From contig JAVLRN010000004.1 in the NCBI GenBank assembly GCA_032821775.1, forward strand, positions 1,736,001 through 1,800,000: 64,000 nt of DNA, read 5' to 3'. Position numbers and translations under genes: made by a program. The DNA is from Sanguinoderma infundibulare. Taxonomy: Eukaryota; Basidiomycota; Agaricomycetes; Polyporales; Polyporaceae. Every line of letters starts with the position of its first letter. Position 1 is the first letter of the stretch. This document shows positions 505 through 52,639 of this stretch, piece by piece. Under the pieces are notes generated by a model. The model ran no database searches. It saw nothing but the letters and a program-made list of their open reading frames with translations, and was not told the DNA's origin.

Positions 505-1248
505 ATGTACTCGGCGGTCAAGTCCACCATTTCTTTCCTGGCTTTCTTCCTACTGGCCTCGACCGAGTCTCTTTTCTTGATCCTTAGTCCTCTTTTCGTC
601 TTCGTGTCCTTCATTCAGAGCTTCGGGTAAGCGCTTTCAACCATTTCTCCTTCGCAGACCGCTTAGCATCCATGCAGATTCTTCGTCATGGCTTGCATCG
701 CCGCCGCATTCAGGCTCCCCCACACCGCATTTGCCTTGGCAATCGCCATCATCCGGTCCTTCGTTCCCGGCGTTTTCTTCCGCTCGCCGTCCCTCAGTCC
801 TCTCAGGCCGCTTCCTTCCCCCGGAAACCCCTCCCCTGCGTCATCTACCTCTTCATTCTCGGACGACTCTGAAGCGTCCATCCTGTCCTCCTGGTCGACG
901 TCTTCCTCTGCCCTCTCCCCCTCTCTCTCATCTTCGCCTTCCGTCGTCGCGGATGCCGCAGTTCACGCGCCGTTCATGCCCGCCTCGCTCTCTGCCTGGG
1001 ACCTCGCCGAAGGAACGCAGGCCACGGACGACGAGGCGGCCGGCGCCCCCCGTCGCGTCTTCGGCATTCCCGTCGAGGACCTCCCCGCGTACTCGTACAG
1101 TCCTTCCTCCTCCGACTTCTCCACGAAGGAACAGGCCTACCTCTGCACTGCCCTCGGCATCTACGAGGCCTCCTCTGTGCCTCTTAAGGGCTACTGCACT
1201 ACTCCCCTACCCCCACGGACGCGACGCCGCTCTCCGCGCGCTTTGTAG
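505..1248 (+). CDS. Family X protein, copy 1 (X1, internally shortened)
   Basis: Two exons, 505-626 and 678-1248, with an intron from GTAAGC to ATGCAG, encode 230 residues. I do not recognise the family. Exon 1 and the start of exon 2 (residues 1 to about 70) are strongly hydrophobic and look like two or three membrane segments. A serine- and proline-rich middle follows, then a conserved C-terminal core with the motifs FMPASLSAWDLAEGTQ, RRVFGIPVEDLPAYSY, KEQAYLCTALGIYEASS and PLKGYCT, ending in a basic arginine-rich tail. Compared with copies 2-5 about 45 residues are missing in frame after FVPGVFFR, where the others have a third hydrophobic stretch (RTAAYLGF). The start is chosen because all copies share it and the exon length (122 nt). 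A membrane-anchored protein with a cytoplasmic tail is an inference. Confidence 0.8.
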
Positions 1249-1339
1249 TCGTGCGTGTTCCCGGAGCACCACGAGCACAAGCCGGGGTTCTCCCGTGAGG
1301 AGCTCCTGCAGCAGACCTTGGATGGGGAGGGGCGGAACG

Positions 1340-1620
1340 GGAAGCTCTTTTGGTTGACTTTCACGATAGTATATTGCATACAGAACACGACCGCCTTCTC
1401 GTATTTCCATGGAATCTTGGTTTCTTTCTGGGGCTGTGGCTCTCGGGTTGGCCCTCATGACTTGTCACTCGTGCACCGTCTTACCGTCTCACTACGCCGT
1501 ATGCCTTGCACGCAATCACATATCTTGGTTTCGCGTATTCTGTATATCATCTGATGAACGGACGCGATAATTATCAAGGCGGGTGATCCAGTGCGCATCG
1601 ACGGAGAACAATTGCGCAAC
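1340..1620 (+). repeat. 3' flank block of family X, copy 1
   Basis: This downstream sequence, including CCATGGAATCTTGGTTTCTT, a GGCTGTGGCTC stretch and CGCAATCACATATCT, recurs after copies 2, 3, 4 and 5 (8260-8560, 18215-18450, reversed 27045-27386, reversed 51240-51540). It therefore belongs to the duplicated unit and probably holds the 3' UTR and polyadenylation region. A solo copy sits at 9078-9245. Confidence 0.7.
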
Positions 1621-1689
1621 GGAACCACGTCCTTTGATTCTTCTGGGCGGTAAGACTTCCCCGTTCCACAGGGCACTCCTTCTGATAGC

Positions 1690-2230
1690 GAAGGTCGGCC
1701 GTTCGCCTCCCCTGCTGGCCCGGGATCCGCGGTGACCGGGTGTGGCGACGAAGTACGCGATAACGGTAATGCAAGGGGGCGCGAATGACTTCCCGGATCG
1801 ACAGAGGCCCCGGGCCTGCCCACAGGCTACGCCCATGTCCGCGCACGTAGCTGTCGACGACCACCGCGGAACCGCCAATTGCAGGCCGGGCGGCCCCAAG
1901 CTAGGGCTCGCTCTGCGCCGCGGCATGTGATGGCAGCTGTCGGAAGGATCGAGAGGGGAGTGGCTTTAGGTTTGTCGATCGGACCAGGTGGCTATCCAAA
2001 CCTAAGTTGCGCGCAGGATGCAAGATACGCGTGGATCTGGCTCTGAGCCGGAGGGGCGAGCCTTGCTCGCAACGCCGCTTTTGCGTTCTATCGAGGGGTG
2101 CAACGGTTTCTGCCTGTTTCTGCGGAATGCCGGAGTAGATTGATGGCAAGCGAGCGTCACGACAAGGAGAACCTCTGGAATGGCACATACGTTTCGACGC
2201 GGAATGTTGCGCGTTGAACACGGTCGAACC
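1690..2230 (-). repeat. 7TM downstream spacer block, copy A
   Basis: Segments here match, in the appropriate orientation, sequences at about 4440-5050, 8540-9020 and 50690-50930. Shared landmarks are a CACCCGGTCGCGACG-like stretch, an AGCTAGGGCTCGC stretch, and GGAAGGATCGAGAGG followed by GGTGGCTATCCAAA. The block sits downstream of 7TM genes A, B and C, and also after X2 where no 7TM gene remains. No coding sequence was recognised in it. Confidence 0.6.
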
Positions 2231-2418
2231 TATTAATTAGCTAAAAATATCGTATCGGCGGAAAATAAGGGAGATTATGTAGGATAGGTTAGTCCGAGAG
2301 AGATGGGGAGGAAGAGCATGTTTTACAACAACCCCTGAGATTAGATGCGTTCGGGAGAAATATCGGACCTGCGGAACTCTAATAAATTGCAATAAGTTAA
2401 TCATCCTTGAGCGCGACT

Positions 2419-3779
2419 TCATTGGGGACAGGCTGCTCCGGATGGAGACGTTTCCGAGACACCGTTGGTGATCCAGTACATGACGGCCGCGTTGAGGATC
2501 ACCTGTTGGAGACGCATCAGAATACATACAATGTGGTGGTCACGGCCCACTCACGTCGCAACCACAGGCGGCAAGGCAGAGCCACGCCCGCTCTCCGCCA
2601 GACACCACGGCGAGGTAAGCAACGTTGATGGATGAGCCGGCCAGGGCCAAAGCAGAAGCCCTGTGGGCACATTGCGCGGCGTCAAAGAGGGTGGTCCGTT
2701 GGGACTGGATCGACAATCGGAACGTGAGGATGCTCACCAGAGACTCCGTTTCGCTAATATTCTTAAGCTCGGAGTCAGTGTACATGCAAACAGGGGCCAC
2801 ACAAAGAGCGCGGTGAGAAACACGTTGACGAACCTGTAGGGTAAAAATCTCAGGAAGTGTTGCCCGGGGGCAGGGCAATAGAACGAGCACGTACGAATCG
2901 TAAGATAGAACAACGAACGTAGTAACCCTTTCCTCGCCGATGATACACAATCCGTCCTCCCGAATATACGCGACCCTGGCTGCGCCATGCGGAAGGATGT
3001 GATGAGCATATACTTCGATCATAGTTCTAGTCAGATGTACGCACTCAGAATCAACATGACCATCACGCCAACGTAGCCGGCGAAACAGGCCATGGACAGG
3101 ACATACGGTTTGCAATGTAACCGTCGCATTGAGGAATCGAGGGAGAAGACGATGTATACCCGCTCGGCTGAACTTCGACGTCAGTATGGCATGCCGCAGG
3201 ATGCGCGGTACGGCTGGACACACCGAGGAATAGATAAATAGTGAACTTTGTGACTCCATAGAACATCACGCAAGCCCAGAGGCCAATGCTGCATACGATC
3301 TCGCTGCGCTCCATCCCGATGCTGTCCACCAGAATGGAAACTGTGCGTCGAGAGAGGACAGAAGGGGTTTGGATGTCGTTCGCGGAATGGAGGAGGAGTA
3401 TACGCACTTGTGAAGAGGAAGCTCCATCTGACACCGAGCTAAGAACACATGACATGAATGCGAGATGAACGAGAAGACTCACGCCGCTGCAAGGTTGATG
3501 AAGACCAGAATACGAGCCAAGGAAAAGCCTTGAAGTATCCACCCTATCTTCCGCGATGCCATCGCAGAGACCAGCGCGACACCTTTGTTGATTTTCTGTC
3601 GGCAACCTCGGTGGCACAATCAGTGCGGAGAGATACTCACCAAGAAAGTGGATCACTGTGCTGAAAATCGAGACACCGATGTTAGGAAAGCGCCCTGCGG
3701 ACTGGACCGCTCGGACGTTGAGTGCATGGCCAGACACAAGTGCCGCGATCATGGCCAGGAAGGAGGGGCTGCTTGCCAT
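2419..3779 (-). CDS. Seven-helix membrane protein of a basidiomycete family, copy A
   Basis: About ten short exons splice to a protein of roughly 330 residues that is mostly membrane helices. Recognisable pieces in order are MASSPSFLAMIAALVSGH, a helix ending IFSTVIHFLG, the exon VALVSAMASRKIGWILQGF, ILVDSIGMERS, a helix ending VTKFTIYLFL, ERVYIVFS, YIREDGLCIIG, FVNVFLTALFVWPLF, and a last exon INAAVMYWITNGVS. The pattern REDGxCIIG...FVNVFLTxLFVWPL...GWLCLxxCGxDV is one I associate with uncharacterised agaricomycete integral membrane proteins; the function is unknown. I see no in-frame stop with this splicing. The start is the first ATG after an upstream TGA. It lies tail to tail with X1. Exact exon ends are hand-made. 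Confidence 0.65.
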
Positions 3780-5193: not shown

Positions 5194-6661
5194 TCAAGAG
5201 AGGCCGTTTGTGATCCAGTACATGACGGTTGCGTTAAGGATTACCTGTAGCAGATGTATTAGAACGCGTACGGGGTGGCTGACGCGGCCAGCCCACATCG
5301 GAGCCGCAGGCGGCAAGGCAGAGCCATCCACGCTCTCTGCCATCCACCACGGCAAGATATGCGACGTTGACAGACGAGCCGGCCAGGGCCAAAGCAGAAG
5401 CCCTATGAGCACATTGCGCGGCGTCAAAGAGGGTGGTCCGCTGGGACTGGATCGACAATCGGAACTTGAGAATGCTCACCAGAGACTCCGTTTCGCTAAT
5501 GTTCTTAAGTCCGGCGTCAGCTTACACGCAAACAGGGGCCACACAAAGATCAGGGTGAGAAACACGTTGACGAACCTGCATGGCGAAAATGTCAGGAACG
5601 GTTTGCTCTGCGGCAAAGCAATAGAACGAGCAGCACGTACGAGTCGTACGACAGAACGAGGAACGAAGCAACAAGTCCCTGGCCAATGACGCACATACCG
5701 TCCTCACGAATATACGCGATCTTGTCTGTGCCATGTGCGAAAGGACGTGATGAGCACCTCTATCATAGCTCTGGCCGTATGTACTCACACAGAAGTAACA
5801 TGACCCACACGCCAGCGTAGCCGACGATGAAGCCCATGGACATGAGATACGTTTTGCAGTGCCACCGTCCCTTTGTGCAATCGACGGAGAAGACAATGTA
5901 TACCCGCTCGGCTGATATTCGACGTCAGTACGGATGCCGCAGGATGAGCCGGAGGGATGAGCTCACCGAGGAATAGATAAATAGTGAACTTGGTGAGTCC
6001 ATAGAAGAACAGGCAAGCCCAGACACCAGCGCTGCATACTGCCAGGCTGTGCTCCATTCCGATGCTGTCTACAAGGATGGAGACTGTCGCGTCGAGAGAG
6101 AACACAAGAGGTTCGGATTGAGGTCTCGAAATAAAACAGATGTGATCATGGGATACGCACTCGTGAAGGAGAAGCTCCATCTGACAACAAGCTAAGAACA
6201 CGACATGAAGGCGAGAGGAAAGAGGAGACTCACGCGGCTACAAGGTTGATGGCGACCAGAATACGGGCCAAGGAAACGCGTTCAAATATCCATCCTAGCC
6301 TACGGGATATCATGGCAGAAACCAGCGCGATAGCTTTGTCGACCGCCTATCAGCATTCTGCACACAATCAGCCTGGCGGAGAGATGCACACCAAGTAAAT
6401 GGATCACTATGCTGAAAACCTCCCAGCCGATGTTGGGAAATTGCGCTGCGGACTGGATTTCTCGGGCTTTGAGTCCATGCCTAGACACAAATGGCGCCAT
6501 CGCATGACCAGGGTGGGGGCTGCTCGCGGTAGCGACGAGGGGGGGAGAAAGGATCCTCGGTTGGCAGCCCTATAGCGCACGTAAATAGCCTGGTTCGTCA
6601 TCTGGGTGGGTTGCGCGCTGGGGTCGACGACGAGAGGAGCGGGGCTTCCTGTGTGGGCCAT
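5194..6661 (-). CDS. Seven-helix membrane protein, copy B (possible N-terminal frameshift)
   Basis: This is a close paralogue of 7TM-A with the same exon order and intron places. Conserved pieces are a helix exon beginning AIALVSAMISRRLGW, ILVDSIGMEHSLAVCSAG, GLTKFTIYLFL, YIREDGMCVIGQ, FVNVFLTLIFVWPLF and a last exon ending YWITNGLS. A natural-looking N-terminus starts at 6661 (MAHTGSPAPLVVDPS) and carries a proline-rich stretch that copy A lacks. It then meets a 2-nt surplus next to 6505, where copy A reads ATGATCGCGGCA and copy B reads ATGCGATGGCGCC. Either translation begins at the internal ATG at 6500 (MAPFVSRHGLKARE), losing about 50 residues, or the copy is a pseudogene. The last-intron donor is the weak GTGGGC. 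Confidence 0.6.
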
Positions 6662-7019: not shown

Positions 7020-7288
7020 GGTTCGTCTCTGGGGGCCACCCAGCTCAGGAATGATCCCGTTCAAGGTAAGCTCAGAAGCCAGGACAATGAAAAAGCATGG
7101 CAGCCTTGTACCATCACAGGCCCGATCGCCACGGTCGCCGCGACGTGGCTGACCTTTGCTCGGTCCCAAGAGTCGTCAGCCCCACAGCTCCAGAAAGGTA
7201 CATAACACCCACTCTGAGATGACCGGTCCCCATTCACTCCTTCCTTGGTCCCTCTTTGACCTTTCCTTCCCCCCTTCCCCCCCTCATC
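7020..7288 (+). repeat. 5' flank and promoter block of family X, copy 2
   Basis: It carries the shared GTTCAAG/GTAAGCTC donor-like spot near 7065, the GACCTTTGCTCGGTCCCAAG block near 7151-7175, the GTACATAACACCCAC element near 7197, and a pyrimidine-rich leader. The conserved ATGAAGACG found upstream in copies 1, 4 and 5 is altered here. 7TM-B starts on the other strand at 6661, so about 630 nt lie between the two starts. Confidence 0.7.
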
Positions 7289-8173
7289 ATGTTCTACACG
7301 ATCAAGTCAATCATTTCTTTCCTGACTTTCTTCCTATTGGCCTCCGCCGAGTTTCTTTTCTCGATGCTTAGTCCTCTTTTCATCCTCGTCTCCTTCATTC
7401 TGAGCTTCGGGTAAGCGCTTTCAACCATTTCCCCTTCGCAGATTGCTTAGCATCCATGTAGATTCTTCGTCATGGCTTGCATCGCCGCCGCATTCAGGCT
7501 CCCCCACACCGCGTTTGCCTTGGCTTCCGCCATCATCCGGTCCTTTGTTCCCGGCATCCTCTTCCGCACCGCTGCCTACCTTGGCTTCGTTGTACTTCCT
7601 TCCTTCCGGACCTCCTGCGGCGCCATGCGCAAGATCAGCCATATCTCATCATCGTCGACTCTGTCGGATGTCTTGCTAGCTGCCAGCCTTCCTTCCTCCC
7701 CGTCCCGCGGTCCTCTCAGGCCCCTTCCTGCCCTCGGCAGCCGCTCCTCTGCATCATCTATCTCTTCGTGCTCGGACGCGTCGGAGCCGCAAGCGGTCGT
7801 ACCCTCTCCGTCCTCCTGGTCAACGTCTACCTCCGCTCTCTCTCCGTCTCTCTCCTCCTCGTCTTGCACCCTCGCGGAAACCCAGGTCTACGCGCCCTTC
7901 ATGCCCGCATCGCTCTCCGCCTGGGACCTCGCCGAAGGAACGCAGGTCACGGACGACGACGCGTCCGGCGCCCCCCGTCGCGTCTTCGGCATTCCCGTCG
8001 AGGATCTCCCCGCGTACTCGTACAGTCCTTCCTCCTCCGACTTCTCCGCGAAGGAACAGGCCTACCTCTGCACCGCCCTCGGCATATACGAGGCCTCCTC
8101 TGTTCCGCTTAAGGGCTACTGCACTACTCCCCTACCCCCACGGACGCGGCGCCGCTCTCCGCGCGCGTTGTAA
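7289..8173 (+). CDS. Family X protein, copy 2 (X2)
   Basis: Exons 7289-7410 and 7462-8173 encode 277 residues. Exon 1 gives MFYTIKSIISFLTFFLLAS and ends in SFILSFG, a hydrophobic segment. Exon 2 continues with a second hydrophobic stretch (FFVMACIAAAFRLPHTAF) and a third around RTAAYLGFVVLPSF. A serine-rich linker with PLRPLPALGSRSSASS follows, then the conserved core (AWDLAEGTQ, RRVFGIPVEDLPAYSYS, KEQAYLCTALGIYEASS, PLKGYCTTPLPPRTRRR). It keeps the hydrophobic region that X1 lost, but lacks the extra ILF..LSYMFAIPF stretch of X3-X5. The function is unknown, and a membrane location is an inference from hydrophobicity. Confidence 0.8.
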
Positions 8174-9245: not shown

Positions 9246-9255
9246 ACAGCAAGAC

Positions 9256-11093
9256 CTAGGAGTGGCCGCCAATCTTGACGGGGTGGTATGGCTCCTAGTA
9301 CTTGATCTCCTCGCCCGTCAGCTGCACTTCCAGCGAGCCTAGCAGAATTGTGTCGTTGGCAGTACGCTCGTCACCATCACCATCATCTCTCTAGCCACGA
9401 AGGAGGGCGTCAAGACTCACCGAGGATGTTCTCGAGGTTCGAGAGACTGGTCGTTCCGATGATGGGCGCCGTCACGCCGTAGGCTTTCGCCATGATCCAA
9501 GCCAAGGAGACCTGGGCCATTCTCACGCCCTTCTTCTGCGCTATCTCGTCGATCCTATGCGGAGACTCAGACGAGACAGTACAATGTCAACTTTGGATTG
9601 CGTACCTGGTGGTAAGCGTCGGAAGGAAACTGCCGCCGTGTGTGCCCGTGTAGCTGTCTCGGCGGGAGGGGCAAGGACGATTGAAGCAGGGACTCGGAGA
9701 GAGGGATCTCATGCGCACGCATCGGTTTTCTGGCGGAGCGTCTCTGCCGAGTCGAATGGACGGCACAGAGTCCCACGTCCGAGAGACGACCACGGGATCG
9801 ATCCGACACCAAACATCTGTTCAGAGCTGTGTCAGCAAACGACAAGTCGACCGCCAGCGCGAGAAGACTGCGAGGTGCTGACCTTGAGCGTAGGCATCAT
9901 TTCACGCTCCTCCTCTCGGTACATGAGGCTGTATTGCTTCTGCATGGAGACGAAGGGCGTGAGGTTGTGCATGATCGCGTAGTCTGCACGGAGACCGACA
10001 TTCAGCTGAAACCCTGCTGCGGCCAGGCCACACATGGAGACGTACTTTGCATTGCGTGGACCAGGAGGCAGCTCGATCAATCGACGTGTGCTAAGTGTAT
10101 AATTGACGTCCATTGGTAGGCCCAGCATGAGCTCATGCCGATGTATCGCACGTATCCGGCCTTCACGACGTCATGGAGAGCGTGCATCTGTCCGTGCAAC
10201 CACGAAGTCAACAGCATAATCGCCGTTAAGCTCTTACTCTTGGACACTCACGGTTTCTTCGATAGGTGTTTCGTAGTCGAAGCGATGGCCTGAAAAGTGT
10301 CGTCTAAAGGTCGCGTATACTGACGACATCTCTATGGCCACTCACATTACAGCAGGTCAATGTAGTCGACTTGAAGACGCTTGAGGCTCGCCTTCACGGC
10401 GTCGAAAATGTGCTGCGCGATGATGTTGAGACAAAGGGATTGAATTTTCACGTAGGCGTCGCGGCTCAGACACATACCTTGCGATTAAGTCCCCTTTGGT
10501 TAATGATGCCTAATTCCTCTGCCGTCCTACCGGAGGTCCAGATGTTTATGTCGTAGTCTTTCGGGACAGTACTGAACAGCTGGAGAGGGGAATTCAATTC
10601 ATGTTAAACGGTACGCCCAGAGAGGGTGATATATTGGGAACACCTTCGTCATGATGACCAGCTCTTCACGCGGAAGTTCGAGTTTCTTGATTGCATTGCC
10701 CAGTATGATCTCGGAGAGACCGTTCGAGTATACCTGGGTGCCGCCTCAGCTGACAGCTACAGTCAAACGCGGATAACAAGGAACTCACGTCAGCGGTGTC
10801 GGACGTCTGAATACCGTTATCATACCTATGTAGCATGCGAGTCGGATATCAGGTCACATCGCGAGACTCTGAGATATGCATGACTTACGCGAACTTGATA
10901 TGCTTGATGGCCTCTTCCTCAGGCAAGACCCAGTCCTGCCACTGCGGCGAGCCGTACGACATGCAGCCAAGAATGATCTTTGAGACCTTCAGTCCGGAGT
11001 TTCTGAGACGGACTGTCCCAGTACGTTGAGTGTCCTGGTTCAGAAGAGAGGGAAAAGACATCACGACGTACCGTACGGCATTTTTGAGGACAT
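9256..11093 (-). pseudogene. Aldo-keto reductase pseudogene (decayed sister of the gene at 54553)
   Basis: It has the same exon plan as the intact paralogue at 54553-56395, beginning MSSKMPY and VRLRNSGLKVSKIILGC. Inactivating changes relative to that copy are visible. The glutamine codon after DLL (CAA) is TAA. The intron before the 15-nt micro-exon has lost both ends (donor GTGCGT to GGACGT, acceptor TAG to TGG). In the large exon the stretch after LRQKTD runs into TGA. Near the C-terminus TAC is followed by TAG at 9295-9297, short of the ancestral stop at 9256. The family reduces aldehydes or ketones with NADPH; this copy cannot make a full enzyme. Confidence 0.85.
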
Positions 11094-11199
11094 GACGATC
11101 GCATACGGATAAGGCGAAGAAGGAAAGGAGATCGGCTACGATAGCGGTCGAGGGTACGAGGGTAGTCACTTCCACGATGGCTACATATACGAATTATTC

Positions 11200-12240
11200 A
11201 CCAGCGCCTTTGCGTGCTAAGCTGTCGATGCCGTAGTGAGCCGGAGTACAGATCCTAATCGGAATAAGCAAGTCGTGTCTTGATGAACGTATGACCAACC
11301 ATTGGATGTGCCCCGGAGCTATCGGTTGGCTCTCGATTTCGATGTTGCTATGTGGCATTATATTTCGATGGTATCAGTCGGGATTTCATCTTCGAATGGT
11401 CACGGTAAGCCTAACTACGCATCGCCCTGGACGCAATGAGTCAATGGATGGGATAAAGTGAGCGACTTCACTGCAGTACGCACCGTGGGGACCTTAAGGC
11501 CACTGCATCACGGTTAATACTAGCATCGAGCTCGATACGATCCATCTAGGAGCGAGTTAAGACGAATGTCATGATATCAGTAATCCGCGAAACGTGATGC
11601 CGAGTCGCAGATCGGATGGCGTACTTGGCGAGTAGACAGCTGCCTGATCTGGGGAAACGTCCTTGGAGACGGAGTCGTGGGAACCGTGCAAACGGGACGC
11701 CCGTCTTTTTTGACGGACGCCAAAACGCCCGCTTTAAACGGAACGATGCCGAGCCCTAATCCTGATATGGTATCTTAGACGCGCGCCGCGGGGCTAAAGA
11801 CTCGACTCCAACGCGGTCTCCTGCATGATGCACCGGCGCGCGGAAGCGTGCCTCCACCAAGATGGCTGGCATGTAAGTACATCCTCCTTGACTCGAACTT
11901 TGCCTCCTAAGGTAACTCAGGTCTCGGAATGGACTTGACTCAGATGTATGAGAAGGGCTGTGTTGTACTCGACTCGAGGCAACAAGACGGCGATTGAGTA
12001 TGCAGAGGAGTGACAAAAGCGGCGTCAGATCTGAGGACAGAGGCTGAACGCGAGGTGCGAGCGAGAGCATGGCGACAGACCGTGGCCCGAGTGGGGCGCA
12101 GTAGAGTCGGCTTGCCGTGATGCGTGACATGCGCCGGCGTGTTGGCTGTGACTGGACGCCTTGTTTGGCCTGACTACCCCTGCCAGGGCGTACAGGTCCC
12201 TCCACCACAGGTGTTAGCTAACAACAGCCATCTGTTGACT
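11200..12240. other. Intergenic stretch with no recognised gene
   Basis: I see only short open frames with no family resemblance and no flank blocks of the kind found near family X. A minus-strand frame at 11756-12208 has no recognisable motif. Confidence 0.5.
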
Positions 12241-13860: not shown

Positions 13861-15400
13861 ATGCGGTCTGCTGCCATCCTGTACGCTCTCGCCGCGCTCG
13901 CCATGAGCGGGTACGGGCTCCCGCTCGAGGCCCGCAACGACGGGTGCGTTCCAGCTTTTCCTCCCTCCGAGCCCTGTTCGCCTGTGCTCACGGACCCTTT
14001 TTTCGTTCTGCAGGTCGCTCGCGGTGTACGCTCGTGAGGCTGCTCCCCCGCCCCCGCCGGGTCTGCCTGGTTTGCCGCCGCCTCCCCCGCCCCAGGGCCC
14101 GCCGCCTCCCCACGCGGCTCGTGCAGGTCCTCCTCCTCCGCCGGGCCCTCACCCGCCCCAGGGCCCTCACCCGCCTCCCCACGCGGCTCGCGCAGGTCCT
14201 CCTCCTCCGCCGGGTCCTCACCCTCAGGGCCCTCACCCGCCCCAGGGCCCGCCGCCTCCCCACGCGGCTCGTGCAGGTCCTCCTCCTCCGCCGGGCCCTC
14301 ATCCGCCCCAGGGCCCTCACCCGCCTCCCCACGCGGCTCGTGCAGGTCCTCCTCCTCCGCCGGGGCCTCACCCTCAGGGCCCTCACCCGCCCCAGGGTCC
14401 GCCGCCACCTCCCCACGTGGCCCGTGAGGCTGCCCCTCCGCCGGGGCCTCACCCTCAGGGCCCTCATCCGCCCCAGGGCCCTCACCCGCCTCCCCACGCG
14501 GCTCGCGCAGGTCCTCCTCCTCCGCCGGGTCCTCACCCTCAGGGCCCTCACCCGCCCCAGGGCCCGCCGCCTCCCCACGCGGCTCGTGCAGGTCCTCCTC
14601 CTCCGCCGGGCCCTCATCCGCCCCAGGGCCCTCACCCGCCTCCCCACGCGGCTCGTGCAGGTCCTCCTCCTCCGCCGGGGCCTCACCCTCAGGGCCCTCA
14701 CCCGCCCCAGGGTCCGCCGCCACCTCCCCACGTGGCCCGTGAGGCTGCCCCTCCGCCGGGGCCTCACCCTCAGGGCCCTCATCCGCCCCAGGGCCCTCAC
14801 CCGCCTCCCCACGCGGCTCGCGCAGGTCCTCCTCCTCCGCCGGGTCCTCACCCTCAGGGCCCTCACCCGCCCCAGGGCCCGCCGCCTCCCCACGCGGCTC
14901 GTGCAGGTCCTCCTCCTCCGCCGGGCCCTCATCCGCCCCAGGGCCCTCACCCGCCTCCCCACGCGGCTCGTGCAGGTCCTCCTCCTCCGCCGGGGCCTCA
15001 CCCTCAGGGCCCTCACCCGCCCCAGGGTCCGCCGCCACCTCCCCACGTGGCCCGTGAGGCTGCCCCTCCGCCGGGGCCTCACCCTCAGGGCCCTCACCCG
15101 CCCCAGGGCCCTCACCCGCCTCCCCACGCGGCTCGTGCAGGTCCTCCTCCGCCGGGGCCTCACCCTCAGGGCCCTCACCCGCCCCAGGGCCCTCCCCCGC
15201 CTCCCCACGCGGTACGTGGAGCACCTCCGCCGCCGCCGCCGCCGCACCAGGGCCCTCCCCCGCCTCCCCACGCGGCTCGTGCTCCTCCCCCGCCCCCGCC
15301 CCCTCCCCAGGGTCCGCCGCCGCCTCCCCACGCGGCTCGTGAGGCTGCCCCTCCGCCTCCCCCGACTGTCCCTGCTCCGCCTCCTCCGCCCCACTTCTAA
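13861..15400 (+). CDS. Secreted proline/histidine/glycine-rich repeat protein
   Basis: Exons 13861-13943 and 14014-15400 give 489 residues. Residues 1-20 or so (MRSAAILYALAALAMSGYG) form a clear signal peptide, followed by LPLEARND. From about residue 37 the rest is built of PPHAARAGPPPPPGPHP and QGPHPPQGPPPP type units, with a variant HVAREAAPPPGPHP. There is no cysteine and almost no charge besides Arg and His. Such low-complexity proline-rich chains are usually extended and found in walls or surface layers; a wall or matrix role is an inference. A TATA box 114 nt upstream and a good intron (GTGCGT...CTGCAG) support a real gene. Long minus-strand and alternate frames are repeat shadows. Confidence 0.8.
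14110..15140 (+). repeat. 315-bp higher-order tandem repeat inside the proline-rich gene
   Basis: The landmark GTGCAGGTCC followed by TCCTCCTCCGCCGGGCCCTCATCC occurs at 14271, 14586 and 14901, exactly 315 nt apart. A second landmark (CGCAGGTCCTCCTCCTCCGCCGGGTCC) occurs at 14191, 14506 and 14821. So there are three nearly identical 105-codon blocks, each composed of shorter PPHAA-containing units. The near identity suggests recent unequal exchange. Confidence 0.9.
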
Positions 15401-16739: not shown

Positions 16740-17120
16740 TTGTTACTAGCTGTGAGAGCTGCACGATGTCTTCTCGGAGTCCATCAAAGTATTCTGCGGC
16801 TTGCCTAATGACGACGGACAGCCCACTCGAAAGCAAACTTGAACACGGGCAAGGCTGCTCGCAAAGACGTGTCTGGTGGCCATCCGTTCAAGGTGAGTTC
16901 GGAAATTGTGAAAATGCTAATCCTCGACAGCCTCGTACCGTCCAGGCCCGATCGCCATGGTCGCCACGACGTGGCTGACCTTTGCTCGGTCCCAAGAGTC
17001 GTCAGCCCCGCACTCCGGTACATAAGACCCACGCTGAGACAACGGGTCCTCATACATCTTTCCTTCGTCCCTCTTTGTCCCTTCCTTCCCTCCTTCCCCC
17101 GTCCTCACCATCGTCTCATC
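16740..17120 (+). repeat. 5' flank and promoter block of family X, copy 3
   Basis: It carries AAAGACGTGTCTGGTGGCCA and GTTCAAGGTGAGTTC near 16860-16900, the GACCTTTGCTCGGTCCCAAG block near 16977-17000, GTACATAAGACCCAC near 17019, and a pyrimidine-rich leader before the ATG. It is nearly the same as the X5 flank. Confidence 0.75.
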
Positions 17121-18119
17121 ATGTTCTCCACGATCAAGACAATCATTTCTTTCCTGGCATTCCTCCTCCTGGCCGCGATCCAGTCTCTCTTCTCGACAGT
17201 TGGTCCTCTTTTGGTCCTCTTCTCCTTCATTCGCAGCTTCGGGTAAGCACCTTCAACCCTCATCCCTTCCCAATGCGCTTAGCATCCACGCAGATTCTTC
17301 GTCTTCGCTTGCATCGCCTCCGCATTCAGGCTGCCCAGCACCGCGTTTGCCTTCGCTTCGGCTATCATCCGTTCCTTAATCCTCAACATTCTCTTCATGA
17401 CTCTCTCTTACATGTTCGCCATCCCATTCCGCACCGCTGCATACCTTGGCTTCCTCGTCCTTCCTCCCTTACCGTTCTCTCGCGGCGCCATGCCCGAGCC
17501 AGAACCCGCCACCCCGGCTTCTCACCGGGCCCATAAGTCTCGTCGTTCATCCTTTTCTCAGAACTCGCCTCTAGTATTCAGGATCAGCCATCTCTTCACA
17601 TCGTCGACTCTATCGGATGTCTCTCTGAACTCTAGCTTGCCATCTCCCTCCCCGTCCCGCGGTCCTCTTAGGCCCCTTCCCATCCTCGGCAACCGCTCCT
17701 CTGCGTCGTCCATCTCCTCGTTCTCGGACGACTTTGACGCGTCGGAGCCGCGAGCGGGTCTACCCTCCACGTCCTCCTGTTCGACATCTGCCTCCGCCCT
17801 CTCTCCTTCCTCGTCTTGCACACTGCCGGATGCACCGATTCACGCGCCGTTCATGCCCGCGTCGCTTTCCGCCTGGGACGTCGCCGAAGGGACGCAGGCC
17901 ACGAACGACGACGTTTCCGGCACCCCCCGTCGCGTCTTCGGCATCCCCATCGAGGACCTCCCCGCGTACTCGTATAGTGCCCCCGAGTTCTCCGCGAAGG
18001 AGCAGGCCTACCTCTGCACGGCGCTCGGCATCTACGAGGCTTCGTCCATGCCTCTCAAGGGCTATTGCACTGCTCCCCTGCCCCCACGGACGCGGGGCCG
18101 CTCTCCGCGCGGGATGTAG
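17121..18119 (+). CDS. Family X protein, copy 3 (X3)
   Basis: Exons 17121-17242 (122 nt) and 17294-18119 give 315 residues. The N-terminus MFSTIKTIISFLAFLLLAA and the next stretches (CIASAFRLPSTAFAFAS, then ILFMTLSYMFAIPFRTAAYLGF) form three or four hydrophobic segments within about 105 residues. An acidic/serine linker containing SISSFSDDFDASEP precedes the conserved core AWDVAEGTQATNDD, RRVFGIPIEDLPAYSYS, KEQAYLCTALGIYEASS and PLKGYCTAPLPPRTRGR. Copies 3 and 5 differ by only a few residues, including in non-coding flanks, so they are the most recent pair. The role is unknown. Confidence 0.85.
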
Positions 18120-27386: not shown

Positions 27387-28393
27387 CTACAATCTGCGTG
27401 GGGAGGTGCGCCGCGTCCGCGGAGGCAAAGGGGCAGTGCAATAGCCTTTGAGCGGCATAGAGGACGCCTCGTAGATGCCGAGTGCGGTGCAGAGGTAGGC
27501 CTGTTCCTTCTCCGAGAAGTCAGAGGAGGAAGGGCTGTACGAGTACGTGGGGAGGTCCTCAATCGGGATGCCGAAGAGGCGGCGGGGTGTACTGGAAGTG
27601 TCTTCATCCGTAGCTTGCGTTCCTTCGGCAAGGTCCCAGGCGGAGAGCGATGGGGGCATGAATGGCGCGTGGACCGGAGCATCCGTGACGATGGAAGACG
27701 AGGAGAGAGTGGGAGAGAAGGTGGAACTAGATGTCGACCCGGAGGACCGGGAGGGTAGGGTGGCTAGTCGCGCAGCCGGCCAGTCGAAGGCGTCTGAGCA
27801 CGAAGAGATAGATGACGCAGAGGAGCGATTTCCGAGGGAAGGGAGGGGCCTGAGAGGACCGCGGGAAGGGGAAGGGGAAGGGAGGCTGGCAGCTAGAGAG
27901 ATATCCGACAGGGTCGACGATGAGAAGAGATGGCTGATCCGGAAGACTAGAGACGAGTTCTGAGAGAACGATGAGCGATACGACTTGTGAGCCGGGTGAG
28001 AAGCCGGTTCTAGCTCTCGCATGACATCGCAAGAGGTTTGGAAGAGAGGAAGAACGAGGAAGCCGAAGTAGGCAGCGGTGCGGAACGGGACGGCGAACGC
28101 GTAAGAGAGGATCCGGAAGAGAATGTTGGGGATAAATGAGTGGATGATAGCCAAAGCCGCGGCAATCGCGGTGTGGGGGAGCCTCAATGCGGAGGTTATG
28201 CAAGCGAAGATGAAGAATCTGCGTGTATGCTAAGAGGTTTGCGGAGGGGGGACCGCATTGGAAACGCTTACCCGAAGCTGCGAATGAAGGAGGCGAGGAC
28301 GAAAAGAAGGCCAAATGTCGAGAAGAGAGACTGGGTGGAGGCCAGCAAGAAGGATGCCATGAACGAGATGATTGACTTGATCGTCCAGTACAT
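27387..28393 (-). CDS. Family X protein, copy 4 (X4)
   Basis: Exons 28272-28393 (122 nt) and 27387-28218 give 317 residues. The start MYWTIKSIISFMASFLLAS and exon end SFIRSFG match the other copies. Hydrophobic stretches include LRLPHTAIAAALAIIHSF and LSYAFAVPFRTAAYFGFLVL. The core reads AWDLAEGTQATDED, RRLFGIPIEDLPTYSYS, KEQAYLCTALGIYEASS and PLKGYCTAPLPPRTRRT. It is the most diverged full-length copy but shows no stop or frameshift, which suggests selection to keep the reading frame. It lies between BTB1 and the BTB2 pseudogene, as if inserted into an older BTB array. Confidence 0.85.
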
Positions 28394-28690
28394 GGTTAGA
28401 TGATGATGAGGGCGGGAGAGCGAGGGAAGGAAGGGTCGAGGGGAGGACTTCGACGGGCGAAGGAAGGAAGGGATGAGGACTCGTCGCGTAAGGGTGGGTG
28501 TTATGTACCTTGGAGGTACGGGGCTGACGATTGGGACCGAACAAAGGTCAGCCACGTCGCGGTGGCCGTGGAGATCGGGCCTGCGATGGTACGAGGCTGT
28601 CATCCATTGCGAGCGCACCTTGAACGGAATCATTCTGGAGCCGGATGACCACCAGACGCGTCTTCATGGCGAGGATATTTGCTGTCCGTG
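28394..28690 (-). repeat. 5' flank and promoter block of family X, copy 4
   Basis: On the minus strand it contains ATGAAGACGCGTCTGGTGGT, GTTCAAG/GTGCGC, the ACCTTTGTTCGGTCCCAATC block and a GTACATAACACCCAC element before a pyrimidine-rich leader. Beyond 28740 I see no shared sequence and no gene up to 29060. Confidence 0.7.
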
Positions 28691-30072: not shown

Positions 30073-32365
30073 TCACTGGGCGGTAGCGGTGGGCGCCGTG
30101 GCCCACCCCTCGACAGACACGCCCATCAGCTCAGGCAACCTTCCGAAAATCTTGCGTTGCTCCTCCAGCTGCCGCCCGAAACATTTCGGGCACAGTCCGC
30201 GATCCGCCTCAAGGTCTGGCGCGACATCTCCAGACCCCAGCAGGTACGCGCTTCTCGAGCTAAGCGAGAGGGACAGGTCCCAGCGGAGGCACTGCAGCTC
30301 GTTCGCGACACGGCCGCCGTCGCCGCTCGCACTGTCCGAGTCGACCAGCTCCGTGAGGAAGCGCTCCAGCGCGGCCTTGCAGCGCGTAGGACGCTTGCAT
30401 TCGTCCGAGATCATGTGGGAGCGAAGGGTTTGGGCCGTGAGTACACAGGCTCCGAGCAGCTTCGTCTTGCCTGTGAAGCATCGCCCGAGATCAGCCTGGG
30501 ACAACATTTCCTTCGTGCCGTCCTCGCGCGTGAAACCATCAAGGAGCTCTGCTCCGAGCGTGCAGCAACGCATGAGGGCGATCGGGAGAAGGGCATCTCC
30601 CTCTTTGCCAAGGAAGCGCGCGAGGTTGACGACGCCGATCGCGTGGATGGGCTCGAAGAATGGAGGGTCGACCCCGGATAGCTTCATCCATGCGTTGAAG
30701 TCGGCGACGTAGAACTTCTTGAGGTAGTCCACGCTACGCTGGAGCAGCTTCTGGGCTTGGTACTTGAGTCCAAAGCGGATGTGTGCGGATATCTCGCCGA
30801 ATGATGGCTCGACGCTGTCGAACAGAGAGATTTATCAGTATACGAAAAGAACACGCCAAAAGAGACGAAAGCGTACCGAGCGCCGCCACCTGTCAAGAAG
30901 CGAAGGACGTGTCGAAGATCAGCTGGAGCATTGCCTGACATATGCACGATGGCGCCGGGCGGGTATCGGGCGAAGAGTTCCTTGAGGATAGGTGACTGTG
31001 CTACCAATGGGCCCTTGTACACGCGGAACTCCACTCCCGAGGTGGCCATGCGGATGTTACCATCTTCATACCAAAATTCGCTATCCCGCTGGGCAACGCC
31101 GCCAGAAATAGGAAGGTAGCTACCAAGCCATGCATAGGGGGCAGCCGACGAGTTGGAGAGAGCATTAGCAGCAATCGGAGGTGTAACATGGCAGGTTTGA
31201 GCCGTGTTCTGGGGCCCGGGTCCAGGAGCTGAGAGTGGATAGGGATTCATAGCGAAAGGCGGCCCGGGTCTGTAGTAGTAGTAGTTAAAAGGCCTAGGTG
31301 GTGCAGGAGCCGGAGGAGGGATGACCTGAGGAAGATCCGGAGATGGGGCGGGTTCAGGTGGGAACAACGGTTGAACTACCCGTGCCGGCACCCTGTTAGG
31401 CAGATTGTTGGCATTGGCTAATCAAGTGAGCAAAGTTAGATTGGTCGCCAAATACCGCCAGCGCAATCAGACGTACACGATATCAGGGGATTCCCAAACA
31501 GAACCGTTGGGTAAGGAGGCTGAGGAACAGGAACAGGAGGTGGAACCAGCACGATGTTGGTAGATGGGGCTCGCGACGATATGCTGGCCGTGGCCGGCCT
31601 ACTCTCATGATCTTGGAAAGATTCTGAGCGCAACGAGCATCGTGAGTCGTACACAGATTGTTCTGGGATGGAAGACTGGGATGGGGTGCGCTGCGCTGGT
31701 GCAGTTGTTGTGATGGGCCTCGGCGGATGATATCCTTGAACAGCTTCTGAGCTCGACAAATGCCATCCACCAGAAGGTGTGTGTGCTGATTGCAGAGATA
31801 AAATCAGATCCGTTAATGATTGTAAATTGACAATCGAGAACGTACTGGGCATGGCCTCAGCCTGAGCGATTGATTGTAGTCGGGACTGTCCATTCGCACG
31901 CTTCGGGTTTGACAGCGGAGAAGCGTCAGTCAGCACATTGTGGTGCTGTGGGGGAGAACTTTGAACACTTGAGTCATCGTCGGGTGGAGGAGGGTTCGCC
32001 GGAGGACAAAAGTCCCAAAATCCTGGGACGCGGATGGGGGCCGAATCCGGTGACGGTCGAAAGAAATAACCTCCATGACTCGGATCAGGAAGGGCCGGAG
32101 GCATTTGAGACGGCGGGAAAGAGAGGTGACTGTCGGCCAAATTGAGCTTCTCCACCGCTGTAGAAACCTCCGATAGGTCCTGAGACGGTGCTTGCCCTAC
32201 CGTGCGAGGATCCGCGTTTCCTTCTGTGGTATATGGAGGATCGAGAGGTGCGAATGGCTGGAAGGGATAAAACTGGACGAAAACCGGAGATGACGACTGA
32301 GAGTTCATCTCACTATAGGCCTCAGAGCCTCCAGATGAGGTAAACGGAGGCGGCATAGAGGTCAT
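30073..32365 (-). CDS. BTB/POZ domain protein with proline-rich N-terminus (BTB3)
   Basis: Four exons (31846-32365, 31479-31785, 30877-31392, 30073-30814) give 694 residues in frame. The first 350 or so residues are low-complexity Pro/Ser/Gln (QSSPPQHHNV, VPPPVPVPQPPYPT, PPAPAPPRPFNYYYY). The BTB domain begins at RDSEFWYEDGNIRMATSGVE, FRVYKGPLVAQSPILKELF, followed by APADLRHVLRFLTGG and LKYQAQKLLQRSVDYLKKFY. The C-terminal extension keeps PIHAIGVVNLARFLGKEG and TREDGTKEMLSQADLGRCF, which match BTB1. It is probably a dimerising adaptor or transcription-related factor; substrates are unknown. The second intron acceptor is chosen to keep frame. Confidence 0.8.
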
Positions 32366-46950: not shown

Positions 46951-47296
46951 TGCAGTCCGACGACTTGTGGGCCGGGTGAAAAGCCGGTTCTGGCTCGTCC
47001 ATGGCGCCGCGGGAGGTGTGGACGGCAGGAAGGACAAGTAAGTCAAGGTGGACGGTGGTGCGGAATGGGATGGCGAACATGTAAGAGGGGGTCCTGAAGA
47101 GAATGTCCAGGATAAAGGAACAGATGGTAACCGAAGCGAAGAATTGGGAAGGGGCAAAGGTTGAAGGTGTTTACCCGAAGCTGCGAATGAAGGAGACGAG
47201 GACCAAAACAGGACCGAGTGTCGAGAAAAGAGACTGAATCGAGGCCAGCAGGAGAAATGCCAAGCAAGAAATGATTGACTTGATCATAGAGACCAT
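46951..47296 (-). pseudogene. Family X pseudogene, copy 6 (X6)
   Basis: Exon 1 is intact (47175-47296, 122 nt, MVSMIKSIISCLAFLLLAS to SFIRSFG) and ends at GTAAAC. The sequence then jumps: the branch and acceptor region and the first 20 or so codons of exon 2 are deleted, joining CCCAAT directly to TTCTTCGCTTCGG. The remaining exon 2 sequence reads ILFRTPSYMFAIPFRTTVHL and HPAHKSSDCIFA, then TGA, without the linker and conserved core. No functional family X protein is possible. Confidence 0.85.
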
Positions 47297-47520
47297 GATG
47301 AGATGATGGGGGAACGGGGGGACAGAGGGGGACGGAGGAAAACGTGGATCAGGACCCGTTGTCTCAGCGCGGGTCCTATGTACTTTGGAGTGTGGGGCTG
47401 ACGAGTCTTGGGACCGAGCAAAGGTCGGCCACGTCCCGGAGTCCATGGCGATCGGGCCTGAGGCGGTACGAGGTTGTCATGCATTAGCATTGTCATGACT
47501 TCTGAACTCACCTGGAACAG
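47297..47520 (-). repeat. 5' flank block of family X, copy 6
   Basis: It keeps the GTTCCAGGTGAGTTCAGAAG spot, the GACCTTTGCTCGGTCCCAAG block and a GTACATAGGACCCGC element on the minus strand, so the promoter was copied together with the broken gene. Confidence 0.7.
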
Positions 47521-48032: not shown

Positions 48033-48099
48033 CGATGCGAGAGCGAGGTCGCGCGGGAGCTGATAGGTGTGTCAGACAATGATGGGGAAGGGGTGGCGG

Positions 48100-49330
48100 G
48101 AAAGATTCCCTGAACAATGTTGACACGCATAAACGATACATACCTCTGCGGCTTTCCCGACCTCGAGCTCGTTCCTTCCATAACTGACGGTGTTGGGGTC
48201 CCAAACCTGGATATTCAATGGGTTCCCTTCGCCCGAAAGCCGTGGATTTCATGGGAACATGAGGCGTCAGAAATGCCAAGAAACGTGGTCAACTGCATGG
48301 AAAAAACCGACCTGGATTCCACCACAAGACAACTGGGGGTCCTGGACACCGTGGCTTGAGTTCGGAATAGCGGCGTCCTCAGGCTCCATATTCGCAGATG
48401 TCAGACAGAAGTGAGTGGAGGCTCAGGATTGGTATCAACAGATGTAGATTATGTGCGTAAGGCCTTGAGATGCGAGAGTGGCGCCGTGGATTGCGGGAAG
48501 GTTGGGGTGGCAGCGCGGACATGCGATGGCTGGTGGGAGGCAATGGGCATAGATTCTCACGGAGAAAAATGCTCGGAAGCATACTGGTGATTTTCCATGG
48601 AGACGATCAAAGGAGTGGAAAATCGGAGTGCAGGGGAGTGCAGGAGAGTAGCTCGGAGTGCATCAGGAATTGGAAGTCATTTTAAGCGCCTGTCGTTAGC
48701 TGAGGACTCCGGACTACTGCTGCGCAATAGCTATGTCCTCAGCGTCTGAGGCTCGCTACTGCCTAGGCTTCCTACTTTTGTTTGATCATGTCGTGAAGAA
48801 ATACAAGTAAAAGGCTTGCGTACCTGCGTTCTTACGGCGGTTGTCCTGCCAGTTGTGGGTACTACCACAGTTTGTCACATATGGTGCCTAGTGATCCTAA
48901 CTAGATTGAGTGACGAGTCCCGCATTGGCCATCAAAGGGTAGACAGTAGACTTGCCGAACTCTAAGGACGTACATTCATCACTGGTTCATTCATGACTTT
49001 GAATGCACTGGAAGCGGTCGCCGACGGAGACAACGAACCGTGACCGTGGAGCGTCCAGGAGCGAGCATGTCACAATTTGACGCCCAAAGCGATCGAGATG
49101 AGATCTCGGGAGTGATCATCGTCCCCGCCAACGTCACAGACAGCGCCCAGGGACTTGGTGCAGGCCTGGCGATCACAACAGAGTCGCGGCCGCGGCGCAA
49201 GCGACAGGTTGACCCCACTCAATCGACAACATGGCCCACATGCCGACTAGGCTAGGCGTGCTTTGGCCGGAAGGCCCACACATGCCTAGTATTAGGAGCT
49301 GAGGATCCTTTCTCCCTCCCGGCTCGCTGC
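48100..49330. other. Intergenic stretch with no recognised gene
   Basis: Only short frames without motifs were seen. The 7TM-C promoter should lie at the right end. Confidence 0.45.
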
Positions 49331-49359
49331 TAGTAGCATGAGCACCCTTCCTGGCCACC

Positions 49360-50673
49360 ATGGTGGCATTTGTGTCAAGCCATACACTCAACGCCCGAGA
49401 AATCCATGCTGCAGGCCGCTTTCCTAACTACGGCGTGGAAATCATAAGTATAGTGATCAATCTTTTCGGTGAGTATCTCTCCGCCGTAATCGTGTGCAGG
49501 ATGCTGACACAAAATTGTCCAAGGTGTCGCTCTGGTCTCTGGGATGCTATCCCGGAAGTTATTTTGGATATTTCAATGCGTTTCCTGGCCGCGTATCCTG
49601 CTTTTGATCAACCATTCAGCGGCGTGAGTTCTTACCTTCTTCTCGGTCTCAAGTCGCGTCTTCTCAACTTGGTGTCAGATGGGGCTTCTCATCCACAAGT
49701 GCGTATCCCTTGACCAGTCGCGTTTCATTCCACCACCGAAATCCAAACCTCACTTGTCCCCTCTCGACGCGACAGTTACCATTCTGGTAAATAGCATGGG
49801 GATGGAGTACAGCGTGCGCGTATGCCGCGCTGGCATCTGGGCTTGCCTGTTCTTCTATGGGCTCACCAAGTTTACTATCTATTGTTTCCTTGGTGCGTCC
49901 AACCACTACGGTGCATCCCGCAGTATGCCGTACTGATGTCGGATGTCAGCCGAGCGGGTATATATTGTCTTCGCCTTCGATTCCACAAAGGGACGGTGGC
50001 ACTGCAAAGCGTACCTCCTGTCCATGGTCTTCATTATCGGCTACGCTGGCGTGTGGGTCATGCTGCTTCTGGGTGCGTATATACTGCCAGAGCTATGATG
50101 GAGATATATGCTCATCACATCCTTCCGCACATGGTAAAGACAAGATCGCGTATCTTCGGGAGGACGGATTGTGCATCATCGGCCAGGGATTCTTTGCTTC
50201 GATACTCATTCTGACATATGATTCGTACGCGCTCGTTCTATCGCTCTACCCCCGGGCAACGGTTCTCAAGGTTTTCGCCACACAGGTTTGTCAACGTGCT
50301 TCTCACCTTGCTCTTTGTGTGGCCCCTCTTCCTGTGCACGCTGACTCCAGGATTAAGAGGATTAGCGAAACGGAGTCTCTGGTGAGCATTATAACGTGCC
50401 GATTATCAATTCAGTAGTTGTGGACCACCCGTTTGACTCTCCGCGAACGCGCTCACAGTGCATCTGCTGTCGCGCTGGCCGGGTCGTCCGTCAATGTGAT
50501 TTACCTCACCGTGGTCGGAGGGGGGGAGAAGGGGTGGCTCTGCCTCGCCTCCTGTGGTTCCGACGTGAGTTCGCCGTGTCCGCCAGCCGGTACGTATTCT
50601 GATACTTCTCCTACAGGTGATCCTCAACGCGGCCGTCATGTACTCCATCACCAGCGGCGTCTCTCCATCTTAG
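49360..50673 (+). CDS. Seven-helix membrane protein, copy C
   Basis: It starts at an ATG in good context (GCCACCATGG), MVAFVSSHTLNAREIHAAGR; a TGA lies just upstream in frame, so the proline-rich N-terminus of copy B is missing. Spliced pieces are IISIVINLFG, VALVSGMLSRKLFWIFQC, ITILVNSMGMEYSVRVCRAG, YGLTKFTIYCFL, ERVYIVFAFDSTKGRWH, YLREDGLCIIGQGF, FVNVLLTLLFVWPLF, LWTTRLTLRERAHSASAVAL, GWLCLASCGSD and a last exon ending SITSGVSPS. All introns I could place have GT...AG ends. It is very similar to copies A and B but on the other strand, and lies tail to tail with X5. A receptor-like or transporter-like role is possible but unsupported. Confidence 0.7.
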
Positions 50674-50689
50674 CGATCTCGAAAGTGGA

Positions 50690-50930
50690 TCCGGGAGTTC
50701 CCAATCAACAACCACTCGATCCCGATCAAGCCTTCTCCATCGATCGAGCCTTTCTCGATCCTTCCTTTCCGAACTCATTTAGCCACGTACGTCCATCGAC
50801 GGCGTCCTCCGACGTCGCGAGCGAGCCCCGATGCGGAGTCATCTGCTGTTGCCTCCTCTGTTTGCCGGGGCGTGACCGGGTGCGGCGACGAAGTACACGA
50901 TGACCGCGATGCAAGTGTGCACGAATGCTC
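50690..50930 (+). repeat. 7TM downstream spacer block, copy C
   Basis: It contains CTCGATCCTTCCTTTCCGAACTCATTTAGCCACGTACG and GTGACCGGGTGCGGCGACGAAGTAC, which match 8940-8925 and 8588 (reversed) and the block at 1690-2010. It ties the region to the left-hand duplicated zone. Confidence 0.6.
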
Positions 50931-51239
50931 GCCGTCGCACCTTGCAGCATAGCGCACCCCCGCGCCCGACACGATGGAACTTGAAGGACTCAAGAGGGCC
51001 GTGTCGAACGACGAAGCCTTAACCTCGCCCTGAAGATTGGCGGTCACGCCTGTGTCTGGTCACGGGGCGAGCCGCGAAATGGGCTTTGTGCCATACTTCG
51101 TGCTGCGGGACAGTCATTGCAAACGGACGAATGGCATGACCGACAGTCTCGCTTATTCGTTCTTCCTTTGCCTTCTCACTCGCTCCATACCAAACTTTCA
51201 GAAGGACCCGAAGGTCGCAGGTGTGTGGCGCAATCATTC

Positions 51240-51637
51240 TCCGACCCGCTGTGCGTAACGCTTAACCCGATCGTCGTCGATTCGCACTGAATCGCATATG
51301 TCAGTGCATCGCGTCCGTGGCCGAAACCGAAATATGCGATTGTATGCAAGGCGTATGGAGTAGTTAGATGGTAAGATGGGGAAAGAATGACGAGTCACGA
51401 TGGGCCAACCGATGAGCCACAACCCGAGATGAAGAAACCATAATTCCATGAATGCGCCAGAAGGCGGTTCGAAAAGTCGTATTCCTATGCAATATGTTGT
51501 CGCCATGAAGTCGTACGAAGTGAAGCAAACCAAAGATATGAATCTCGACCGCCAGTGCCAGTACTCCTCGTCCTCGTCATGACCTTCTTCAAGACATCTT
51601 TAAAGGAGAACTCCGGCCGTGGGAGGGGGAGACCGTC
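51240..51637 (-). repeat. 3' flank block of family X, copy 5
   Basis: Reversed copy with CATTCATGGAATTATGGTTTC, GGGTTGTGGCTCATCGGTTGG and CGCATTTCGGTTTCGGCC-like sequence, closest to copy 3. It is followed to the left by the 7TM spacer. Confidence 0.65.
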
Positions 51638-52639
51638 CTACAACCCGCGCGGAGAGCGGCGCCGCGTCCGTGGGGGCAGGGGAGCAGTGCAATAGCCCTT
51701 GAGAGGCATGGACGAAGCCTCGTAGATGCCGAGCGCCGTGCAGAGGTAGGCCTGCTCCTTCGCGGAGAACTCGGAGGGGACGCTATACGAGTACGCAGGG
51801 AGGTCCTCGATGGGGATGCCGAAGACGCGGCGAGGCGCGCCTGAAGCGTCGTCGTCCGTGGCCTGTGTCCCTTCGGCGACGTCCCAGGCGGAAAGCGACG
51901 CGGGCATGAACGGCGCGTGGATCGATGCATCCGGCACGGTGCAAGACGAGGAAGGAGAGAGGGCGGAGGCAGATGTCGAACAGGAGGACGTAGAGGGTAG
52001 GCCCGCTCGCGGCTCCGTCGCGTCAAAGTCGTCCGAGAACGAGGAGATGGACGACGCAGAGGAGCGGTTGCCGAGGGTGGGAAGGGGCCTAAGAGGACCG
52101 CGTGACGGGGAGGGAGATGGCAAGCTAGAGGTCAGAGAGACATCCGATAGAGTCGACGATGTGAAGAGATGGCTGATCCTGAATACTAGAGGCGCGTTCT
52201 GAGAAAAGGATGAACGATGCGACTTATGGGCCCGGTGAGAAGCCGGGGTGGCCGGTTCTGGCTCGCGCATGGCGACGGGGGTCGATCGGAAGGGAGGAAG
52301 GAGAAGGAAGCCAAGGTAGGCAGCGGTGCGGAATGGGATGGGGAACATGTAAGAGAGGGTCATGAAGAGAATGTTGGGGATTAAGGAACGGATGATACCC
52401 GAAGCGAAGGCGAACGCGGTGCTGGGCAGCTTGAATGCGGAGGCGATGCAAGCGAAGACGAAGAATCTGCGTGGATGCTAAGCGCATTGGGAAGGGATGA
52501 GGGTTGAAAGTGCTTACCCGAAGCTGCGAATGAAGGATACGGGGACCAAAAAAGGACCAACTGTCGAGAAGAGAGCCTGTATCGCGGCCAGAAGGAGGAA
52601 TGCCAGGAAAGAAATGATTGTCTTGATCGTGGAGAACAT
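51638..52639 (-). CDS. Family X protein, copy 5 (X5)
   Basis: Exons 52518-52639 (122 nt) and 51638-52466 give 316 residues. It is almost identical to X3: MFSTIKTIISFLAFLLLAA, a second segment CIASAFKLPSTAFAFAS, ILFMTLSYMFPIPFRTAAYL, the SISSFSDDFDATEP linker, and the core AWDVAEGTQATDDD, RRVFGIPIEDLPAYSYS, KEQAYLCTALGIYEASS and PLKGYCTAPLPPRTRRR. The promoter block (52640-52930) is also nearly the same as that of X3. It converges on 7TM-C. The function is unknown. Confidence 0.85.

Follow-up and report, generated by a model that had tools for sequence, protein, structure and literature searches.

A 64-kb stretch of the Sanguinoderma infundibulare genome (contig JAVLRN010000004.1, C4:1736001-1800000, hereafter the window; the genome comprises 48.9 Mb in 87 contigs) carries most of a cluster of protein-coding genes, here called family X, whose products join a hydrophobic N-terminus to a strongly constrained C-terminal tail. 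At roughly even odds (a probability of about 0.5), we read the X proteins as membrane-anchored docking tails for a cytosolic partner. Family X is a clustered, probably lineage-restricted orphan family of probable fungal membrane proteins. Ordinary in kind, it is of interest as a clean, testable orphan family: its intact copies are under selection, its upstream box is private, its tail is defined, and its cluster shares a contig with the pheromone receptors.

Family X genes are protein-coding

The five full copies and one remnant described by a first-pass annotation of the window were all recovered at the positions it had given (Table 1), and the 122-nt first exon and phase-2 intron that it had proposed are present in every intact window copy. 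Its copy number held for the window, and the family turned out to be larger. A core query over the genome detected at least 10 core-bearing copies, seven of them within an 85-kb span of C4 and single ones on C6, C3 and C9, the counts from this query being lower bounds; a full-length query (E up to 10) added the window remnant (C4:1782811) and a C2 fragment in which the SLSAWD part is present and the core absent. Two further intact copies thus lie on C4 and one on C6, bringing the intact copies, which encode 230-317 aa, to eight (seven on C4 and one on C6), while the C3 copy is frame-shifted and the C9 copy is diverged with a long open frame. Exon 1 measures 122 nt in nine copies, and their introns of 51-53 nt all start with GTAAGC. 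With a common acceptor, the intron is 51 nt long in seven of these nine, 52 nt in the C3 copy and 53 nt in X copy 4; in three copies the choice of the longest frame took a nearer AG, and the common acceptor was set by hand, which gave alignable proteins. In the C9 gene model the first exon is 131 nt long and the intron 49 nt, its phase matching that of the other copies; the intron is retained across all ten core copies.

Computation shows that these genes encode proteins, and chance open frames were ruled out by substitution ratios, gap lengths and stop counts. The ratio of nonsynonymous to synonymous substitution rates (dN/dS) was obtained from Nei-Gojobori counts pooled over the 28 pairs of the eight intact copies, pairs that are not independent of one another, with the C3 and C9 copies excluded. 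It was 0.39 overall, 0.547 in exon 1, 0.662 in the next hydrophobic part, 0.443 in the serine-rich linker, 0.199 in the SLSAWD block and 0.168 in the core. Purifying selection on the core, which had been suggested beforehand, is thus borne out by the comparison with the linker (0.17 vs 0.44), the linker and the hydrophobic parts being looser. When measured against the diverged C9 copy, dN/dS was 0.58 in the linker and 0.27 in the block and core, which are still constrained. All 15 coding gap intervals were multiples of three, as against 5/14 upstream (Fisher p 0.0002; shared gaps are not independent). When neutral evolution was simulated along the eight terminal branches, whose lengths came from the X tree, 9.4 stops were expected and none was observed, and 0 of 2000 runs were stop-free; this agrees with the earlier remark that the copies remain open despite their divergence.

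Predicted membrane region, conserved tail and candidate partner

Hydropathy places the hydrophobic stretches of X within its N-terminal 50-100 residues, and zero or one acidic residue occurs among residues 1-100 in all nine copies compared. A structure model of exon 2 of X copy 3, built from five window sequences, reached a mean predicted local distance difference test (pLDDT) score of 42.1 and a predicted template modelling (pTM) score of 0.15; in this low-confidence model, helices appear at the N-terminus and a short one at KEQAYLCTAL within the core. Together, the hydropathy and the helices of this poor model suggest that the hydrophobic N-terminus is a membrane anchor bearing a cytosolic tail, the cytosolic side being predicted from basic residues that follow the last hydrophobic stretch. 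The serine-rich stretch is probably disordered and cytosolic. The conserved tail reads PFxPxSLSAWDxAEG ... FGIPxEDLPxYSYS ... FSxxExAYLCxALGxxExSS, and the intact copies end in RAL, RGL, RGM or RRL. The conserved C-terminal core of the earlier description stands, apart from PLPPR as a universal feature, the C9 copy having a different tail there. Its absence from the C9 copy was the reason for abandoning an SH3 reading of PLPPR.

The same architecture could be read with the emphasis reversed: X proteins might be structural membrane proteins, for example forming hairpins or curvature in the endoplasmic reticulum, with the hydrophobic part doing the work and the tail acting as a retention or folding element. 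In X copies 3 and 5, the roughly 30 residues that run from K6 to R38 do form a hydrophobic stretch without charges, and more hydrophobic stretches come after it. However, the hydrophobic part is the least constrained region (dN/dS 0.55-0.66) and the tail the most constrained, and a piece of the hydrophobic part is missing from copy 1 and from the copy at C4:1703644; we regard a structural role as rather unlikely.

A binding or signalling tail, as proposed in the first-pass annotation, is plausible. Under the docking reading, the X tail would be a peptide held at the membrane to which a cytosolic partner docks. The ubiquitin ligase Rsp5, of the WW-HECT type, is the most likely single partner, though its identification is doubtful: it would be bound through the LPxY of the tail, and X might then steer other membrane proteins, perhaps those of the neighbouring family Y, into endocytic or vacuolar sorting. 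LPxY, as part of an EDLPxY block, is found in nine of the ten core-bearing copies (the C3 copy counted in its second frame), and three WW domains beside HECT exons at C5:2655335-2657212 indicate that a WW-HECT ligase is encoded in the genome. Short membrane proteins are described as working with PY-type motifs, among them Commissureless, PRRG4 and Rcr1 (PMC5578492) and Sna3, Bsd2 and Tre1/2 (PMC2171029), and binding of Rsp5/Nedd4 through such motifs is described there for Rcr1, Sna3 and Commissureless (PMC5578492, PMC2171029). X resembles such partners (yeast Rcr1/Rcr2, Sna3, Bsd2 and Tre1/Tre2; animal Commissureless and PRRG proteins) in being small and probably of membrane type and in carrying a PPxY/LPxY motif, predicted to be cytoplasmic in X. 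On the other hand, Pfam and PDB sequence searches found no sequence relationship to them, and X differs in a conserved tail much longer than the motif, in its serine-rich linker and in its several hydrophobic stretches.

Several observations weigh against the docking tail and against Rsp5 as its partner. The X model is poor (mean pLDDT 42.1), and the topology derives from hydropathy and charge. The pattern [LP]PxY arose in 1082 of 10000 shuffles of one tail (~11%); the intact copy at C4:1703644 has LPAC instead, and the C9 copy keeps LPEY and lacks both tail lysines. Constraint extends well past LPxY, so the motif is not the whole function. In addition, PMC5578492 describes a midline action of Commissureless that does not need Nedd4 binding and a chitin-deposition action of Rcr1 that does not need Rsp5. 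Because the motif occurs in 11% of shuffles and is lost once, conservation reaches far past it and some actions of Commissureless and Rcr1 are ligase-independent, Rsp5 is put forward as a candidate only. If the tail does recruit Rsp5, X would represent a lineage-specific fungal adaptor family tied to co-duplicated membrane proteins; if it does not, X would be another restricted membrane family. Very much more speculative, and improbable as it stands, is the idea of X as a ubiquitin-ligase adaptor of a new, membrane-held class that arose in one mushroom group near the mating-type B region and controls the surface level of Y proteins or of the pheromone receptors on the same contig, with adaptor and cargo genes multiplying together.

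The orphan status of X is consistent with the database searches. Two full X proteins matched 0 Pfam families, and a four-sequence X profile matched 0 PDB sequences (both at E up to 10), in line with the first-pass statement that no known domain fits, which was followed up in Pfam and among PDB sequences, with NCBIfam, PHROGs and PADLOC not searched. Pattern searches returned 45 stretches in viral contigs and 196 in bacterial and archaeal genomes, none of them confirmed as X. A large protein set, queried by a search that requires shared words and similar length, gave no hit with either family at E 0.001 (X, 7986 candidates scored; Y, 159 candidates, the query being a by-eye exon join, which reduces its value as a control). 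Among the best 120 of 4230 matches of a glycogen phosphorylase control in this set were proteins of basidiomycetes such as Mycena, Termitomyces, Rhizoctonia and Suillus, so that the set does cover fungi of this kind; no polypore was named among these 120, most of which carried no name. Because the search missed Y as well and depends on word sharing and comparable length, the absence of X from this set is weak evidence. Among the titles and opening lines of abstracts listed by literature searches, none dealt with family X.

Upstream box, spread of the copies and genomic setting

When the 200 bases upstream of 11 copies (the remnant included) were aligned, AGGCCCGATC was present in 11/11 and TACATAA in 8/11. 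The extended box YAGGCCCGATCBCYAYG has 11 matches in the 48.9-Mb genome, the ten copies and the remnant having one upstream of each, and its reversed pattern has 0 matches genome-wide. This pattern was derived from the X copies themselves, so its informative part is that it occurs nowhere else in the genome; the upstream box is private to family X. A related pattern allowing up to two mismatches found 33 places (11 at X copies) vs 19 in the reversed control, which marks the weaker matches as chance. With one mismatch allowed, the window held 9 matches to the shorter box AGGCCCGATC against an expectation of 6.8, which is no enrichment, and hence only exact and extended matches count.

Segmental duplication has spread the X copies along with neighbouring genes, as computation shows. 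The stretch C4:1703313-1706670 is an inverted copy of 1737560-1733903 in which X travels together with Y (86-90% identity), and a block holding Y, X copy 5 and the repeat family Z recurs on C6 (Table 1). The trees follow these blocks: X at C4:1703644 pairs with X copy 1 and the corresponding Y neighbours also pair, and the C6 X groups with X copies 3 and 5 just as the C6 Y groups with the Y near 50 kb. In the X tree, X copy 3 is slightly nearer to X copy 5 than to the C6 copy, with weak support, and five X nodes have support below 80.

Could X instead be the cargo or a part of a mobile element that merely resembles a gene family? Copies or fragments do occur on four other contigs (C6, C3, C9 and C2), and an isolated unit of about 1.44 kb is common to X copies 3 and 5 (93% identity), its 3' end abrupt and its 5' end less sharp. 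Yet the ends differ between pairs, the intron is retained, and the 7.7-kb block that contains the C6 copy also includes two neighbouring families. When the ends of two pairs were inspected by eye, neither terminal repeats nor target duplications were recognised, and no transposase-type Pfam match appeared in ten translated stretches (nine from the window and one joined Y), no systematic transposase search having been made. A transposable element is disfavoured by the differing ends, the block duplication and the kept intron, and we consider this reading highly improbable; no hallmark that would place X within such an element was seen, either in the C6 block or in the C3 copy, whose similarity ends near the stop codon.

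The C3 copy (C3:480431-481410) has a history of its own. Over 1077 sites, 86 of its 121 differences from its three nearest relatives are C-to-T or G-to-A; C-to-T changes affect 53/182 CpG sites vs 2-9% of CpA, CpT and CpC sites, and in four other X copies 5.5-11% of CpG sites are changed. Its decay looks methylation-driven or like repeat-induced point mutation (RIP), unlike the constrained copies. The neighbourhood of the C3 copy is partly AT-rich.

All 27 reported STE3 exon matches fall on C4 at 1849587-2141964, and five of the seven pheromone-profile matches (E up to 1) lie on the same contig at 1.94-1.97 Mb, the others being at C4 3.58 Mb and on C7. The segment C4:1849587-2141964 is likely the mating-type B region, 61 kb and more past the X cluster. 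A role of X in mating or self-recognition would fit this linkage, since 61 kb separate the start codon of X copy 5 from the first STE3 match beyond it and the X cluster shares its contig with all reported STE3 matches and with these five pheromone matches. Linkage alone is not function, however: X copies also occur on C6, C3 and C9, the core is under purifying rather than diversifying selection, and no STE3 match (E up to 0.001) or pheromone match (E up to 1) coincides with the X genes. Such a role is accordingly judged unlikely, and the docking tail is retained as the preferred reading.

Feature positions and neighbouring genes

Table 1. Family X copies, their upstream boxes and associated features, in window coordinates except where a contig is named.
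Feature	Position	Strand	Details
X copy 1	505..1248	+	exon 1 505-626, intron 627-677, exon 2 678-1248; 230 aa; without the third hydrophobic stretch and part of the linker
X copy 2	7289..8173	+	exon 1 7289-7410, intron 7411-7461, exon 2 7462-8173; 277 aa
X copy 3	17121..18119	+	exon 1 17121-17242, intron 17243-17293, exon 2 17294-18119; 315 aa
X copy 4	27387..28393	-	exon 1 28393-28272, intron 28271-28219 (53 nt), exon 2 28218-27387; 317 aa
X copy 5	51638..52639	-	exon 1 52639-52518, intron 52517-52467, exon 2 52466-51638; 316 aa
X remnant	46951..47296	-	first exon open; no normal intron end found; lacks the serine linker and the core
Upstream box AGGCCCGATC, X copy 1	321..330	+	
Upstream box, X copy 2	7118..7127	+	
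Upstream box, X copy 3	16944..16953	+	
Upstream box, X copy 4	28573..28582	-	
Upstream box, X remnant	47450..47459	-	
Upstream box, X copy 5	52809..52818	-	
Core matches on C4	C4: 1703644, 1728877, 1737045, 1743970, 1753925, 1763390, 1787641		five inside the window
Block of Y, X copy 5 and repeat family Z	48725..56691		second copy at C6 2647022-2654696 (7.7 kb); three aligned pieces, 87-91% identity
Family Y	2456..3776	-	multi-exon, several hydrophobic exons; tail to tail with X copy 1
Family Y	5197..6558	-	head to head with X copy 2
Family Y	49301..50664	+	tail to tail with X copy 5

Family Y has at least 99 exon matches over many contigs (C4, C2, C6, C9 and others) and often adjoins X on C4. 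It is like X in being clustered on C4, duplicated in the same blocks and without a Pfam match, whereas its sequence is unrelated and it has several hydrophobic exons. It presumably resembles a seven-helix family of polypore genomes. Repeat family Z occurs in the window at 9249-11217 and 54417-56402 (77% identical) and also in the C6 block. A GC-rich minisatellite at 14081-15364 has units of 69-81, 150-165 and 315 bases and lies within frames of ~485-542 codons that are open on both strands.

No Rfam match was obtained in the window at gathering scores. Pfam matches above the cut-off identified an MFS transporter, a glycogen phosphorylase and an ABC1-kinase-like gene, and those below it F-box-like and BTB-like genes. 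Taken together with the short introns, the STE3 genes and the fungal pheromone matches, this gene content suggests a basidiomycete. The BTB-like gene occurs as diverged repeats along the region, including 24569-26170 and 29249-30831, with Pfam matches below the cut-off.

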